Assembly (NCBI GenBank): GCA_017431255.1 | Contig: JAFRLI010000278.1 | Coordinates: forward strand, 1 to 32,060 | Source of the DNA: Victivallales bacterium | GTDB taxonomy: Bacteria > Verrucomicrobiota > Lentisphaeria > Oligosphaerales > Oligosphaeraceae | DNA: 32,060 nucleotides | Reading direction: 5' to 3' | Shown: piece by piece, positions 16,149 to 27,325 of the stretch | Layout: the number at the start of each line of letters is the position of its first letter | How positions within the stretch are numbered: position 1 is the stretch's first letter | Translations under genes and position numbers: made by a program | The notes under the pieces: generated by a model | What the model was told of the DNA's origin: nothing | The model's database searches: none | What the model saw: the letters and a program-made list of their open reading frames with translations, nothing else

Positions 16149-16313
16149 GTTCTACACTCCTGGTGATTTCATCCCCTGCCTTCCTCTCGCAAACACATTT
16201 CTTTTTACTGTAACCTCTGATGCTCCCTTTTCAATCCCGCTCCTAGCAAAAAACAACCCAGATTCCACGGGCACTCTATTCGCAAAGTGCCTTTCGAGGT
16301 ATTATATTGAGGG

Positions 16314-16340
16314 AATTGCAAAACTCTCATCCCAACCGCC
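16314..16340 (+). repeat. Isolated left end of palindromic element
   Basis: AATTGCAAAACT followed by CTCATCCCAACCGCC, the same as the terminal 27 nt of copies A/B, but the inner part and the other end are missing. It lies in the 248-bp divergent gap, 57 nt before the moxR start. Just upstream, TTCGCA and TATTAT/TTATAT (about 16280-16306) could be a weak promoter for moxR. Nothing else is recognised in 16149-16396. Confidence 0.6.
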
Positions 16341-21047: not shown

Positions 21048-21087
21048 CGGGAACAATTCGGGAAAGGGAGTGTCAAATAGAAGAGTG

Positions 21088-21266
21088 AATTGCAAAACTC
21101 TTTTGAAGTCCACAGAACACACAGAATACACAGACCTGTTTGTCCGCGCCAGCGCGGCCAAACACTTGATATAAAACAAAATACAAAGTGCAAGACGCCG
21201 CGAAGCGGCGGATTGCATTCTGTGTGTTCTGTGTGTTCTGTGGACTCAAAAATGAGTTTTGCAACT
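21088..21266 (+). repeat. Composite inverted-repeat element, copy C
   Basis: Outer ends AATTGCAAAACT (21088-21099) and AGTTTTGCAACT (21255-21266) match the ends of copies A/B. The inside differs: 27-nt arms beginning AGTCCACAGAACACACAG (21107-21133) pair with 21220-21246 with one mismatch. The centre holds small hairpins (CCGCGCCAGCGCGG, GCCGCGAAGCGGC). A further AATTGCAAAGCTCAC follows at 21290. The element fills most of the gap between the prepilin terminator and the second moxR gene, where a promoter would be expected. Confidence 0.75.
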
Positions 21267-21313
21267 ACCTCATAAGAGTGAATTGCAAAGCTCACACATT
21301 AGGAAACGCAGTC

Positions 21314-22306: not shown

Positions 22307-23175
22307 TTTCCAAGGAACTTGCCAAGAAAATCCGCTACATCCAGATATTCACCAGCAAGACCGTCAACGACGTGCTGGCTGGCGAATACCAGAGCGCATT
22401 CAAAGGCTCGGGGATGGAGTTTGATGAAGTGCGAGAGTACCAGCCGGGCGATGAAGTACGTTCCATCGACTGGAATGTCACGGCGCGGCAGGGCCGTCCC
22501 TACGTCAAGCGATTCCACGAGGAGCGGGAGCTCACTGTGATGTTCCTGGTGGATTTGTCGGCCTCGGGCAAGTTTGGCAGCAGCACGCAGACGAAGAATG
22601 AACTCGCGGCTGAACTCTGCGCCTTGCTTTCCTTCTCCGCCGTCAAAAGCAATGACAAAGTCGGTCTCATCCTCTTCACGGACCGCATCGAACGCTTCAT
22701 CCCGCCCGCCAAGGGAACCACCCATGCGCTTCGCATCATTCGCGAAGTAATGGGATTCCATCCCACGGGAGGCCAGACCGACATCGAAGGCGCACTCGAC
22801 TACCTTGGGCGCGTCATTCGGAAACGTTGCGTCGTTTTCCTCATTTCCGACTTCCAGGGAGAGGGTTTTGAACGGCGTGCGCGCGTTGTTGCCAAGAAGC
22901 ATGATTTAATTGCCGTAAGCGTTGCGGACAAGCGAGAGATGGATTTGCCAGATGTCGGTTTGTTGGAATTGGAGGACGCGGAGACGGGAGAGACCGTGCT
23001 CATCGACACGGGGTCGGCTGGCATTCGCGGGCAGTACGCTGCATTCGGCGAGGAAGAACGCCGTGCCTTGCGGAACCGATTCCGCGGGATGGGCGTGGAT
23101 TTGCTGGAACTGCTCACAGGCGAGAACTATGCCAAGAAACTAGTGCAGTTCTTCCGCAGGAGGGAACACGCGTGA
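22303..23175 (+). CDS. DUF58-family VWA-like protein
   Basis: 290 residues. The DUF58 hallmark REYQPGDEVRSIDWNVTAR lies at 44-62. A VWA-type metal-site motif DLSAS follows at 84-88, with TGGQTDIEGAL near residue 150 as the later part. No transmembrane segment is evident, so it is probably cytoplasmic or peripheral. DUF58 proteins are almost always encoded next to MoxR and are thought to be its partner. It overlaps both neighbours by 4 nt (ATGA upstream, GTGA downstream), so the downstream gene's GTG start at 23172 looks like the native coupled start. Confidence 0.92.
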   Translation: MISKELAKKIRYIQIFTSKTVNDVLAGEYQSAFKGSGMEFDEVREYQPGDEVRSIDWNVTARQGRPYVKRFHEERELTVMFLVDLSASGKFGSSTQTKNELAAELCALLSFSAVKSNDKVGLILFTDRIERFIPPAKGTTHALRIIREVMGFHPTGGQTDIEGALDYLGRVIRKRCVVFLISDFQGEGFERRARVVAKKHDLIAVSVADKREMDLPDVGLLELEDAETGETVLIDTGSAGIRGQYAAFGEEERRALRNRFRGMGVDLLELLTGENYAKKLVQFFRRREHA

Positions 23176-25274
23176 GATGCCTGGCGTACATCCTAGAGAT
23201 ATGGAGACGGTTTCAGCTGCCGAGTCTCCTCTCCCTCATTTGTCTTCCTGTCTTTGTGGCAGCCAGTCTCCTCTCCCTCATTTGTCTTCCTGTCTTTGGA
23301 GCAGCCAGTCTCCTCTCCCTCGTTCGTCTTCCTGTCTTTGGGGCAGCCTGTCTCCTCTCCCTCAATCGTCTGCATGTCTTTGGGGCAGCCTGTCTCCTCT
23401 CCCTCAATCGTCTGCATGTCTTTGGGGCGGCCTGTTTCCTCTCCCTCGTTCGTCTTCCTGTCTTTGATGCAACCAGTCTCCTTTCCCTCGTTAGTCTTCC
23501 TGTCTTTGTGGCAGCCAGTCTCCTCTCCCTCATTTGTCTTCCTGTCTTTGGGGCAGCCAGTCTCCTCTCCCTCATTCGTCTTCCTGTCTTTGTGGCAACC
23601 CGTCTCCTCTCCCTCGTTCGTCTTCCTGTCTTTGGGGCAGCCAGTCTCCTCTCCCTCATTTGTCTTCCTGTCTTTGGGGCAGCCATTCTGCTTGCCTGTC
23701 TACGGTCATTACGGTCTTTTCTCGGGTGCGCGCGCGAGGGAGGATGGATCCCCCACCCGGTGGGAACCCAGCCAAATAGCGCACAGCAAATATCGCATGT
23801 TTCCATCCAGGTTTCAAGCATTTTTCCCGAAAAATGGCAACTATCACCAAATACGCTATGTTTCCGAGAATATTTTTCTTCTATTTTAAGAAACCTTAGG
23901 GGGGTGTTCCAGGGAACGTGCCTTCCTGCCTGTCTACCCTGGCGCGGGAGTGAGCGCGAGGGAGGATGGCATGTCGAACGCGATGCTACCCATCCCGTCG
24001 AGGGGTGGCGCGGGCGCGGGCACGCGCGCGAGGGTGCGCCTGGCGGACAAGGTGCTCTGCCGCGCCGGGGGTCGCTCGGGCACGGGCGCGCGCGCGTGGG
24101 AGGATGGATCCCCCACCCGGTGGGAACCCAGCCAAATAGCGCACAGAAAATATCGCACGTTTCCAGCCAGGTTTCAAGCGTTTTTCTCGAAAAATGGCAA
24201 CTATCACCAAATACGCTACGTTTCCGAGAATACTTTTCTTCTATTTTGAGAAACCTCCGGCAGAGGTTCCTTGGGAATTGTCTGTCGCCTGCCCGTTGCG
24301 TCCTGACGGTTCTGCTGTTCTGTCTTGCGGCGGGGGCAGAGGAAGCGAAGCGCGACCCGGTCCCGTATACACGCGAGTTCCGCTCTGGAACCGCCACGGT
24401 ACGCCTTGCGCTCGACCGGACGGTCCTGGGACTGGACGAAACCATCACCCTCACCCTGGAGGCGGAGGCACCCGAATCCTACATCATCACGCTGCCTGAA
24501 CTGCAAGACGGGGTCAAGCAGTTCAAATGGGAACTTCTCTCCACGGAAGGGCCTGCACTCACCGCCAACGGAACCATGCTCGTGAAACGTTCTCTTCTGC
24601 TGGAACCCATCTTGATTCCCGAACAATCCCGCATCGGGCCAATGGTCGTTCGATTCCAAAACCGTGCGGATGGCCAGGAACTCCCGATCGAAACCGAAGA
24701 GGTCCCCCTCGATATCCAGAACCCGCCACCGGAATACTGGCAGAACCTCACCGTCGATGAGTCTGCCACCGCCACGCCGATGGACCGCCTCGCACCGCCA
24801 CGCCGCCGCTTATGGCCATGGTTTGCGCTGGCGGGCGTCCTCCTGCTGGCTGCCTTTGCCGTCTGGTACTTCACACGTAAGAAAGTGCTCCCGCCACCGC
24901 CGCCGCCAGACCCCTACGAGGTCGCCATCGCGGAGTTGCGCGTACTCGTCGAGCAAAAACTCATCGAAAACGGCGAAACGATGGAGTACTACAACCGCAT
25001 CCAGCAAATCTTGCGAAACTACATCGAAGGACGCTTCGCCCTGCATGCACCCGAACGCACCACCGAGGAGTTCCTCACCGAAATCACGGGACGCCCCGAA
25101 CTCGAACCCTACCGCGTCCTCCTGCAAAACTTCCTCACGCATTGCGACCTCGTCCGTTTTGCCAAGCACAATCCCGAACTTGCGGAAATCGACGCCACCT
25201 ACGACGATTGCCTCAAGTTCCTTACGAAAACCCGTCCCGCCGAATTGCCAGCCCCCGAGAAGACCAATGCCTAG
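23172..25274 (+). CDS. BatD/DUF4381-like membrane protein with 1.1-kb in-frame repetitive insertion
   Basis: The frame is 700 codons, GTG start overlapping the DUF58 stop. Residues about 375-700 look native. They comprise a hydrophobic segment RCVLTVLLFCLAAGAEE (end of a signal peptide), a beta-rich extracytoplasmic domain (SGTATVRLALDRTVLGLDETITLTLEAE), one transmembrane helix (WPWFALAGVLLLAAFAVWYF, about 552), a Pro run, and a helical cytoplasmic domain (EYYNRIQQILRNYIEGRFALHAPERTTEEFL) as in DUF4381/BatD tails. Residues 4-376 are unlike any Bat protein: eleven 14-residue hydrophobic repeats and then low-complexity sequence. Joining codons 1-3 directly to Val377 gives MRCVLTVLLFCLAAGAEE, a clean signal peptide. 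The insertion (about 1119 nt, 373 codons) keeps the frame. Whether the long form is made is unknown; TTG at 24246 is an alternative start. Confidence 0.75.
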   Translation: MRCLAYILEIWRRFQLPSLLSLICLPVFVAASLLSLICLPVFGAASLLSLVRLPVFGAACLLSLNRLHVFGAACLLSLNRLHVFGAACFLSLVRLPVFDATSLLSLVSLPVFVAASLLSLICLPVFGAASLLSLIRLPVFVATRLLSLVRLPVFGAASLLSLICLPVFGAAILLACLRSLRSFLGCAREGGWIPHPVGTQPNSAQQISHVSIQVSSIFPEKWQLSPNTLCFREYFSSILRNLRGVFQGTCLPACLPWRGSEREGGWHVERDATHPVEGWRGRGHAREGAPGGQGALPRRGSLGHGRARVGGWIPHPVGTQPNSAQKISHVSSQVSSVFLEKWQLSPNTLRFREYFSSILRNLRQRFLGNCLSPARCVLTVLLFCLAAGAEEAKRDPVPYTREFRSGTATVRLALDRTVLGLDETITLTLEAEAPESYIITLPELQDGVKQFKWELLSTEGPALTANGTMLVKRSLLLEPILIPEQSRIGPMVVRFQNRADGQELPIETEEVPLDIQNPPPEYWQNLTVDESATATPMDRLAPPRRRLWPWFALAGVLLLAAFAVWYFTRKKVLPPPPPPDPYEVAIAELRVLVEQKLIENGETMEYYNRIQQILRNYIEGRFALHAPERTTEEFLTEITGRPELEPYRVLLQNFLTHCDLVRFAKHNPELAEIDATYDDCLKFLTKTRPAELPAPEKTNA
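23223..23684 (+). repeat. Minisatellite, eleven 42-bp units
   Basis: Eleven units of exactly 42 bp (starts at 23223, 23265, ... 23643) with no indels, differing by scattered substitutions, mostly at a few fixed positions. In the reading frame of the surrounding gene each encodes a 14-residue unit of the pattern SLLSLICLPVFGAA, with Ile/Val/Asn, Cys/Arg/Ser and Pro/His variants. The plus strand is extremely pyrimidine-rich. There are no spacers, so it is not a CRISPR array. Confidence 0.95.
23721..23930 (+). repeat. Direct-repeat module, copy 1
   Basis: Matches 24081-24290 at a constant offset of 360 nt. The core, from GCGCGCGCG through GGAGGATGGATCCCCC to GAGAATATTTTTCTTCTATT, has only about eight differences over about 165 nt, and similarity fades after GAAACCT. 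It begins with a palindromic GATCCCCCACCCGG-type patch and ends AT-rich. In frame it encodes GGWIPHPVGTQPNSAQ... on both copies. Confidence 0.9.
24081..24290 (+). repeat. Direct-repeat module, copy 2
   Basis: Second copy of the module at 23721-23930, offset by exactly 360 nt (a multiple of 3). The copies are separated by a very GC-rich stretch (about 23935-24080), itself containing a third GCGCGAGGGAGGATGG. The copy ends just where native signal-peptide coding sequence seems to resume (24300). Confidence 0.9.
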
Positions 25275-26010
25275 AATCTGCCTGCTGACCATCCTATGCG
25301 CGTTGTCCCTGCTGGCCGCCATCCCGCCTCGCCCGGCAGAACAAACCTTCGTGTTCGACTATGCAGATTGCCTCGCGCCCGAAGACGCGCAGGCCATGCG
25401 CACCGTCGCCGCCAAGTTGTGCGACAAAAGCGGTGCGGAAATCACCGTCGTCACCATTCCTTCGTTGGATGGGGCTTCCCTGGAGGAGTATGCCAACGAA
25501 CTCTTCAATTCGTGGGGAATTGGGGACAAGGAGAAAAACCTTGGCGTGCTCCTGCTCGTCAATCGGGAAAACATGGTGGCGGCTCGCCCTGGACGCGTCC
25601 GCATCGAAGTCGGCTACGGTTTGGAAGGATGCCTGCCCGACGGCAAATGCGGGCGCATTCTTGATGATTACGCGCTGACTGCCTGGGAGAAGAAGGAGTG
25701 GTCGCGCGGCATTCGAGACACCTTTTTCGTGCTTGCGCGGGTGGTTGCGCAGGAGATGCAACTGGATTTGACACAGGACGGGCTTCAGGTGCTGGCAGAT
25801 GATTCCTACCTGCCTCCCCGGCAGGTCGAGCATCCAGTCAGCTGGGGAGACAGGATTTTCTTCTTTGTTATGCTCCCGCTCCTGCTCATCCTCCGCATCT
25901 TCCTGGGTGGAGGCGGACGCAGCGGTGGCGGACGTCACTACGGCGGCGGTTTCGGCGGCGGACGCAGTTTCGGCGGCGGACGTTCCGGCGGGGGAGGCGC
26001 ATCACGATAA
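25267..26010 (+). CDS. TPM-domain (DUF477) membrane protein with Gly-rich tail
   Basis: 247 residues. A signal peptide (MPRICLLTILCALSLLAA) is followed by a TPM domain (about 27-170) with VFDYADCLAPEDAQ, SGAEITVVTIPSLDG, NSWGIGDKEKNLGVLLLV and RIEVGYGLEGCLPD, all typical. A transmembrane helix (IFFFVMLPLLLILRIFLG, about 197-215) precedes a Gly/Arg/Ser-rich C-terminus (GGGFGGGRSFGGGRSGGGG). TPM proteins include YgcG and plant photosystem II repair factors. Here it probably sits in the membrane with its TPM domain outside the cytoplasm. The start at 25267 overlaps the previous gene by 8 nt; a long frame upstream is a shadow. Its place inside a Bat locus suggests a shared envelope function. Confidence 0.9.
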   Translation: MPRICLLTILCALSLLAAIPPRPAEQTFVFDYADCLAPEDAQAMRTVAAKLCDKSGAEITVVTIPSLDGASLEEYANELFNSWGIGDKEKNLGVLLLVNRENMVAARPGRVRIEVGYGLEGCLPDGKCGRILDDYALTAWEKKEWSRGIRDTFFVLARVVAQEMQLDLTQDGLQVLADDSYLPPRQVEHPVSWGDRIFFFVMLPLLLILRIFLGGGGRSGGGRHYGGGFGGGRSFGGGRSGGGGASR

Positions 26011-26029
26011 GACAGGGATTTTACTACAT

Positions 26030-26218
26030 AGTCCACAGAATACACAGAATACACAGAATCGATTTTGCCAGAGGTCCTTACGGACCGTGATGGTCTCTAT
26101 TGTCCCCGAGGACAATCCGAACCATCAGCACTGCACAAGCGCGTCTGGCAAAATCACGTGGAAAATTTACACACATACACTTTGTTCTTTTCTGTGTATT
26201 CTGTGTATTCTGTGGACT
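26030..26218 (+). repeat. Large inverted-repeat element D with cloverleaf-like core
   Basis: Perfect 29-nt arms (26030-26058 and 26190-26218), the left one beginning AGTCCACAGAATACACAGAA. Inside, GATTTTGCCAGA (26061-26072) pairs exactly with TCTGGCAAAATC (26144-26155). This closes a core with hairpin GGTCC-TTAC-GGACC (26073-26086) and a second stem GATGGT/ACCATC (26089-26126) that encloses ATTGTCC-CCGA-GGACAAT (26099-26116). The arms resemble those of copy C. It fills the 250-bp gap between the TPM gene and batA, otherwise empty, and could attenuate or process the transcript. Confidence 0.85.
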
Positions 26219-26260
26219 CAAATTGAATAATCTGAATGGATAAACGTTCTTCCAACAACA

Positions 26261-27325
26261 ATGTTCCGATTTGAAACACCATTTGCCTTGCTGCTGGCAC
26301 TCCTGCCGGTCCTGCACCTGCTGTGGCAACGCTGGCACCGCGCGCGCCGTGCGGCTGTAGGGTTCTCTTCGACTGCGAACGTGCGTCGCGCCGGCAAGTC
26401 GTGGCGGCAACGCCTTCTCTGGTTGCCGGGAACCTTGCGCTGGCTTGCGATTGCGCTGCTGGCGGTTGCGCTGGCGCGTCCGCAATCTGGTCGGGAGGAT
26501 ATCCGCGAAGTCACGCAGGGAATTGCGATTGAGATGGTGCTGGACCGTTCGGGTTCCATGGGTCTCTGCCTGGACTTCGAGGGACGGATGCAGGACCGCC
26601 TGGAGACCGCCAAGACCATCTTCTCGCGATTCGTGTTTGGGGACGGAAAGACGCTCCAGGGACGCACGGGCGACCTCGTCGGCATGGTCGCATTTGCACG
26701 CTATTCGGACACAGTGTGCCCGCTGACGCTCAGCCATTCCGTGCTCAAGCCATTCCTCAAGACCGTTGCGCTCGCTGAGGAAGACGAGGACGGCACTGCC
26801 ATCGGGGACGCAGTCGCGCTGGCGGCCGCGCGCCTGCACACAGTCGAGGAAACTCTGGCGAAACAGAACCGCAAGGAACCGGCATCGTACCAAATCAAAA
26901 GCAAAGTGATGATTCTGCTGACGGACGGTCAGAACAACTGGGGGCGGCGCACCGTCGCTCAGGCGCGGGAACTTGCCAAGCAGTGGGGGGTCCGCATTTA
27001 CGTCATTGCCTTCGCGGGCGGGGACGTCTACCAGAGCGTTCGCACTCCCTGGGGAATCCAGCATCGACGCGTCTACGAGCGTGAAATGGACACGACTGAA
27101 ATCCGTCGACTAGCCGAGGAGACGGGTGGTCTCTACCGTGCTGCCAAGGACGCGCGTTCGCTGCAGGCCGTCTACGAGGAAATCGATTCTCTGGAGCGCA
27201 GCGAGGTGGAATCCACCCATTTTGTCGATTACAGCGAGCTATACGCGCCCTTTGCGCTGGCGGCGTTCCTGGTTCTCGCGCTGGAACAACTGCTGGTCTG
27301 CACGATACTGAGGAGGCTTCCATGA
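26261..27325 (+). CDS. batA: BatA, VWA-domain membrane protein
   Basis: 354 residues. Two N-terminal hydrophobic segments (about 6-24 and 56-73), then a VWA domain with the metal-site motif DRSGSM at 95-100 and DGTAIGDA near 192, and a last transmembrane helix near 325-345 (FALAAFLVLALEQLLVC). The charged spacer after the first segments and ALARPQSG are typical of BatA/BatB. No obvious Shine-Dalgarno precedes the ATG. It follows element D and overlaps batB by 4 nt (ATGA). In Bacteroides, Bat proteins were linked to oxygen tolerance; in other bacteria they form membrane complexes of unclear function. The VWA domain is expected on the periplasmic side. Confidence 0.92.
   Translation: MFRFETPFALLLALLPVLHLLWQRWHRARRAAVGFSSTANVRRAGKSWRQRLLWLPGTLRWLAIALLAVALARPQSGREDIREVTQGIAIEMVLDRSGSMGLCLDFEGRMQDRLETAKTIFSRFVFGDGKTLQGRTGDLVGMVAFARYSDTVCPLTLSHSVLKPFLKTVALAEEDEDGTAIGDAVALAAARLHTVEETLAKQNRKEPASYQIKSKVMILLTDGQNNWGRRTVAQARELAKQWGVRIYVIAFAGGDVYQSVRTPWGIQHRRVYEREMDTTEIRRLAEETGGLYRAAKDARSLQAVYEEIDSLERSEVESTHFVDYSELYAPFALAAFLVLALEQLLVCTILRRLP

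Follow-up and report, generated by a model that had tools for sequence, protein, structure and literature searches.

The Break Upstream of batA

The window (the whole 32,060-nt stretch that was analyzed, from a Victivallales bacterium) carries a bat operon whose neighboring genes overlap or nearly touch. The only large break in this gene row, as the first-pass annotation had recognized, is a gap of 250 nt (26011–26260) between the stop of a gene with a TPM domain (26010) and the start of batA (26261), the latter identified by its Pfam BatA and VWA matches. The gap holds the palindromic element described here. No terminator-like site (a GC-rich stem followed by a run of T) occurs within 25900–26400, nor did a scan of the same interval reveal a promoter-like site. 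ARAGORN finds no tRNA or tmRNA gene in the window; the window has no Rfam match at the gathering score, and the element has none up to E = 1 (window, L109, and L122). Several genes give the impression of being similar to genes of Lentisphaeria.

Two features of the reading frames in this region may be mentioned. The long ORF at 23172–25274, upstream of the TPM gene, contains a 42-bp unit repeated in tandem eleven times (23223–23689, 90% match) and in frame. A 143-codon ORF (25799–26230) stays open through the entire element, the 9-nt unit of which is free of stops in that frame.

Architecture of the Element

The element is framed by a perfect inverted repeat, the arms of which (26030–26058 and 26190–26218) are 29 nt long and 100% complementary. 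On the forward strand the left arm consists of AGTC and three 9-nt units, CACAGAATA (period 9, 2.9 copies, 100% match), and the right arm, its perfect complement, is composed of the units TTCTGTGTA. Inside the arms lies the cloverleaf core (26061–26155, forward strand), in which a perfect stem of 12 pairs, 26061–26072 with 26144–26155, surrounds three hairpins. Hairpin 1 (26073–26086) is GGTCC-TTAC-GGACC on the forward strand, and in ten other aligned copies it takes the form GGTYC..GRACC. Hairpin 2 (26088–26127, same strand), the most length-variable part between copies, has an inner stem of 7 bp with a CCGA loop (ATTGTCC-CCGA-GGACAAT), nested in TGATGGT/ACCATCA. Hairpin 3 (26128–26142, same strand) is short, with a GC-CT stem; other copies have a CGCG-rich hairpin at this position. 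A spacer that is mostly unpaired in the fold (26156–26189, forward strand) leads from the core to the right arm.

The calculated RNA fold has an energy of −97.3 kcal/mol on the forward strand and −103.5 kcal/mol on the reverse strand (z = −12.9 and −13.2, respectively), none of 200 dinucleotide shuffles being equally stable, and the DNA fold of the element gives z = −13.6. The first-pass annotation had described the perfect 29-nt repeat, the 12-nt stem, and the nested hairpins, and had judged that random DNA would not give such a fold; every one of these features is found where it was placed, and the shuffles (0 of 200 at z = −12.9) uphold the judgment.

The element extends farther to the right than 26218, where it had been taken to end. 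A degenerate end, CTGAATGGATAAAC, at 26232–26245 appears to be part of it; on the reverse strand this end reads GTTTATCCATTCAG, which may be compared with GTTAYTRTTCAGAA, the terminal inverted repeat of full copies in this genome, the match being weak because the end is degenerate. The left terminal repeat is absent from the window copy. The 8-bp sequence GTTCTTCC (26246–26253) occupies the place expected for the right target duplicate, and its partner was not found upstream, so that a duplication is not demonstrated. Because a degenerate right end is all that remains of the termini and GTTCTTCC is unpartnered upstream, the copy in the window is interpreted as truncated on the left.

Copies and Termini

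An initial DNA search recovered two copies with similar cores, C39:4618–4801 (78%) and one on contig C83, together with many matches to the arms only. The C39 copy is the one nearest to that in the window (77–78% identical). The cores of the three can be aligned, and four compensatory pairs are seen among them in the central stem. Direct DNA searches of related genomes matched the arms and not the core, for which a covariance model was needed. Model R1, built from the three aligned cores (26059–26161 in the window), detected additional copies here as well as four in G207, a genome from another genus of the same family. A refined model, R2, gives 26 matches in this genome, six distinct loci in G207, and three in G177, which represents a third genus of this family; the class sample contains 96 other genomes, which together yield one marginal match (E = 0.009). 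Since some matches are fragments at contig ends, and since the window, C39, and C83 copies fall below the R2 threshold, the copy number is put at about 25–29 in this 3.5-Mb assembly. The search for further copies proposed in the first-pass annotation has in this way been productive, both here and in two related genera. Full copies of the family are 228–351 bp long and have no transposase gene inside; the core, with its conserved strings CAAAAGGTYC, GRACCG, and CAGCGCGTTTTG, and the arms occupy their interior.

Terminal inverted repeats of 14 bp bound the full copies and read GTTAYTRTTCAGAA in this genome and GTAWCTATTCAGAA in G207. The two ends of a copy are identical at 10–13 of 14 positions in 14 full family copies, and the 9-nt arms lie about 50 nt inward of the ends in the full copies examined. 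At one mismatch or fewer, the GTTAYTRTTCAGAA end has 69 matches in this genome. An 8-bp target duplication, again allowing one mismatch, is present in 11 of the 13 full copies with both flanks, as against a mean of 0.8 for shuffled flanks; the 228-bp C39 copy has AAAATAAC on either side. It had been suggested that the structure might resemble MITE elements, and the many copies, the terminal inverted repeats, and the target duplications all speak for that suggestion. For the window copy itself, which has one degenerate end and no target duplication, mobility is deduced from these related copies. The 14-bp ends and 8-bp duplications suggest that the elements move, or have moved, as DNA through the action of a transposase supplied in trans. 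No candidate for an autonomous partner, in the form of two ends 0.8–3.5 kb apart, occurs among the matches listed in this draft assembly, and visual inspection of the ORFs adjoining two lone ends revealed no obvious transposase.

Conservation of the Fold

Alignment A6 contains ten copies found with R1 and leaves out the three copies from which R1 was made. An earlier alignment, A5, gave higher covariation and was set aside; it held reverse-complement matches of two copies. In A6, 92.1% of cells pair, a value favored by the fitting of the copies to the model, and the covariation score is 0.375, as compared with 0.068–0.121 when the partners are slid. Changes on both sides are found at 15 of the 35 pairs, with 48 compensatory cells, a count that exceeds the number of independent events since the copies form two main lineages. 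Because these compensatory changes occur in ten copies that played no part in deriving the structure, the four-way junction is, on comparative sequence evidence, under selection for pairing. The junction fold proposed from the window alone is thereby borne out in other copies. G-U and A-C cells number seven and three, counts that do not separate RNA from DNA.

The Arms and a Second Element

The arm pattern TTCTGTGTNTTCTGTGGAC, with up to two mismatches, occurs 345 times in the 3.5-Mb assembly, and a reversed control pattern gives 0. Most such arms are accounted for by a second element, class A, which is about 190 bp long and has 9-nt-period arms of the same kind, with ends (GAGGTAATTGCAAAAC) unlike those of the cloverleaf element. 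Exact 4-bp duplications flank 26 of 48 class A copies, where 1.1 would be expected. The class A alignment has a covariation term of 0.35 and one pair changed on both sides, its copies being too alike for selection to be judged. Within 0.97 Mb, 72 of 73 arm elements lie between genes, as delimited by a simple ORF caller. One class A copy with such arms is found in the window (21083–21271, forward strand), where its flanks, AGAA and ATAA, form no exact 4-bp duplication.

Several other arrangements of class A sequences were seen. Lone, partnerless sequences resembling its ends occur in the window at 16309–16326 (GAGGGAATTGCAAAACTC) and 21276–21293 (GAGTGAATTGCAAAGCTC). At L142 (contig C138 of the same genome, 16882–17086) what looks like nesting is seen, a class A element lying within an additional, outer pair of inverted arms (AGTCCACAGAATACACAGA ... 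CTGTGTATTCTGTGGACT), and at L150 (contig C183, 9894–10247) two class A–like elements with identical right flanks lie about 100 bp apart.

Arms of the same kind surround other cores in G207, and a scan of named genomes finds arms in many phyla among the matches listed. An inverted partner lies within 170 nt of 28 of the 70 listed arms and of 31 of 350 random stretches. A Bacteroides primer that shares a similar string (PMC3090145) concerns an invertible promoter.

Genes Associated with Inverted Arms

Some of the cross-phylum arms enclose genes of the GxxExxY family (L211 and L237), which corresponds to TIGR04256 and Pfam PDDEXK_3 (PD-(D/E)XK). Among GxxExxY loci from genomes of this phylum (L242–L271 and L385–L404), inverted arm motifs are present on both flanks at 18 of 45, and at 0 of 71 controls (Fisher p = 3e-9); an inverted repeat of any kind is found at 26 of the 45, and at 0 of 21 ParE loci. 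A second set of 18 GxxExxY loci gave the same result as the first. The flanking arms have a period of about 9 nt, with units CACAGAGGA and variants thereof. The sole GxxExxY match in the present genome is a pseudogene, C43:6158–6499, which has 9-nt arms and a cloverleaf copy (C43:5762–5891) in its vicinity. In the window copy, which comprises just arms and core, no GxxExxY gene lies between the arms.

Genes for four-helix-bundle proteins (TIGR02436; L272–L301 and L405–L424) show a comparable arrangement: 21 of 50 loci have inverted repeats, and the flanks contain tandem units whose period is mostly 7 nt. These 7-nt units agree with the heptamers that precede S23p in Coxiella (PMC4990558). Apart from those heptamers, no account of GxxExxY or four-helix-bundle genes between such inverted repeats was found in open-licence papers. 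It is possible, if some way short of probable, that inverted arms made of fixed-period tandem units constitute a widespread, as yet undescribed class of mobile hairpin units in bacteria, with period 9 for GxxExxY PD-(D/E)XK genes and period 7 for four-helix-bundle (S23p/IVS) genes. On this view the period-9 kind would have the cloverleaf and class A MITEs as its carriers or non-coding relatives, and the arms or the fold might be what the GxxExxY protein acts on. If such units are truly mobile, roles would be suggested for two common families of unknown function.

Interpretation of the Window Copy

The structure upstream of batA is very probably a left-truncated copy of a non-autonomous MITE with a selected fold, carried as a passenger in the bat operon. 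Intact copies would be moved as DNA by a transposase in trans, through their 14-bp ends and with 8-bp duplications. Inside the ends, the inverted arms with their 9-nt period would pair as a long stem, with the four-way junction (one stem and three hairpins) on top. Since pairing in the junction is kept by compensatory changes, the element may at some stage function in the form of a folded single strand, which could be RNA co-transcribed with neighboring genes or, in the course of transposition, single-stranded or cruciform DNA. Any effects on the batA-E mRNA, such as cleavage in the 29-bp stem or polarity, would be by-products. No description of this MITE family or of its arms was found in open-licence papers. 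The family appears to be new, and its interior, a four-way junction selected for pairing, makes the fold of a bacterial MITE something that can be tested rather than guessed. Its arms point to a wider pattern, in which nuclease-like GxxExxY genes lie within period-9 and four-helix-bundle genes within period-7 inverted arms.

A fold of great stability, placed in the one large gap of an operon, might instead be a regulatory RNA particular to that operon, an attenuator, processing site, or stabilizer, and a 29-bp stem would be a substrate for RNase III. The presence of copies at many other loci, the lack of a terminator-like site, and the lack of an Rfam match tell against this proposal, as does the situation in relatives. 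In the same family, most batA genes have no recognizable TPM gene just upstream; the TPM–batA order is shared by two genomes of one other genus, G189 and G212, and in both the element is absent from the junction. In its place, their gaps (L334 and L335) contain tandem repeats of 7 nt, GCTGAAT and CATAATT. Since these gaps have other repeats and not the element, the gap seems to be a permissive site at which the element is not conserved, and the window copy is most likely a tolerated passenger. The first-pass annotation had entertained termination or stabilization of the batA-E part of the operon, a suggestion that does not fit with the absence of a terminator-like site or with the same junction in two relatives without the element. 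Of the two signs of passive insertion that it had named, even RNA coverage and absence from the same site in relatives, the latter is seen in G189 and G212. A conserved role of the element in the operon thus appears unlikely, and we regard an operon-specific regulatory RNA as improbable. The likeness to REP/BIME-type repeats, which would be moved by a RAYT tyrosine transposase, extends to palindromic structure, intergenic location, and multiple copies; size, the paired terminal inverted repeats of full copies, and their 8-bp duplications set the family apart, and this affiliation is very improbable. Given a draft assembly of 352 contigs with many copies at contig ends, an assembly artefact or chance palindrome might also be considered, and is scarcely tenable in view of a fold with z = −12.9 and of copies in three genera that show covariation; that reading is already refuted.

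A further proposal concerns origin and is compatible with a MITE. The arms may be the original mobile unit, a cross-phylum element whose coding form includes the GxxExxY PD-(D/E)XK protein, with short hairpins, the ~190-bp class A element, and the cloverleaf MITE as non-coding derivatives or carriers. This accords with the frequency of GxxExxY genes between such arms (18 of 45 against 0 of 71) and of any inverted repeat at these loci (26 of 45 against 0 of 21 for ParE), with the occurrence of arms in many phyla, 28 of 70 listed having an inverted partner nearby, with the C43 pseudogene beside both 9-nt arms and a cloverleaf copy, and with the sharing of arms by two MITEs that have unrelated ends. 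However, MITE ends and target duplications suffice for the mobility of the copies here, one adjacency in ~29 copies may be due to chance, and the GxxExxY unit is a candidate only as regards mobility. We therefore hold this origin to be doubtful, though worth entertaining. The 7-nt period in the G189 and G212 gaps is the one seen beside four-helix-bundle genes.

Relation to Known Repeats

Among described elements, the NEMIS/Correia repeats of Neisseria share with the cloverleaf family small size, multiple copies, mainly intergenic location, terminal inverted repeats with target duplication, and a long stem-loop, which in NEMIS is found in structured transcripts (PMC2229807). NEMIS have terminal repeats of ~24 bp, TA at their ends, and lengths of ~107–155 bp (PMC2229807), whereas the present copies have 14-bp terminal repeats, 8-bp duplications, lengths of 230–350 bp, and period-9 arms that carry a conserved four-way junction. 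The fold of ERIC RNA has been proposed to affect the stability of mRNA from upstream genes, and both NEMIS and ERIC are proposed to act as RNA co-transcribed with neighboring genes (PMC2229807). RUP elements are 107 bp long, have a TA target, and are linked to IS630 (PMC2229807). ERIC/IRU and RUP are MITE-like repeats, as here, but differ in ends and sizes, and for the cloverleaf element an RNA effect would be conjectural.

The 23S rRNA intervening sequences with S23p/four-helix-bundle genes have ends that form a long stem and, in Coxiella, heptamers before the ORF (PMC4990558). A long end-formed stem and short tandem units near a small gene are thus common ground; here the period is 9 rather than 7, the location is outside rRNA, and the window copy has no gene. 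REPs are hairpins of 20–40 bp tagged GTAG or CGTC (PMC3733652). The cloverleaf copies, likewise palindromic and intergenic, are ten times longer and have pairs of terminal inverted repeats and target duplications. Ends of the IS66 type begin 5'-GTAA and are flanked by 8-bp duplications. The cloverleaf family shares duplications of this length, and GTAA starts one end of the G207 copies, whereas copies in the present genome start with GTTA.
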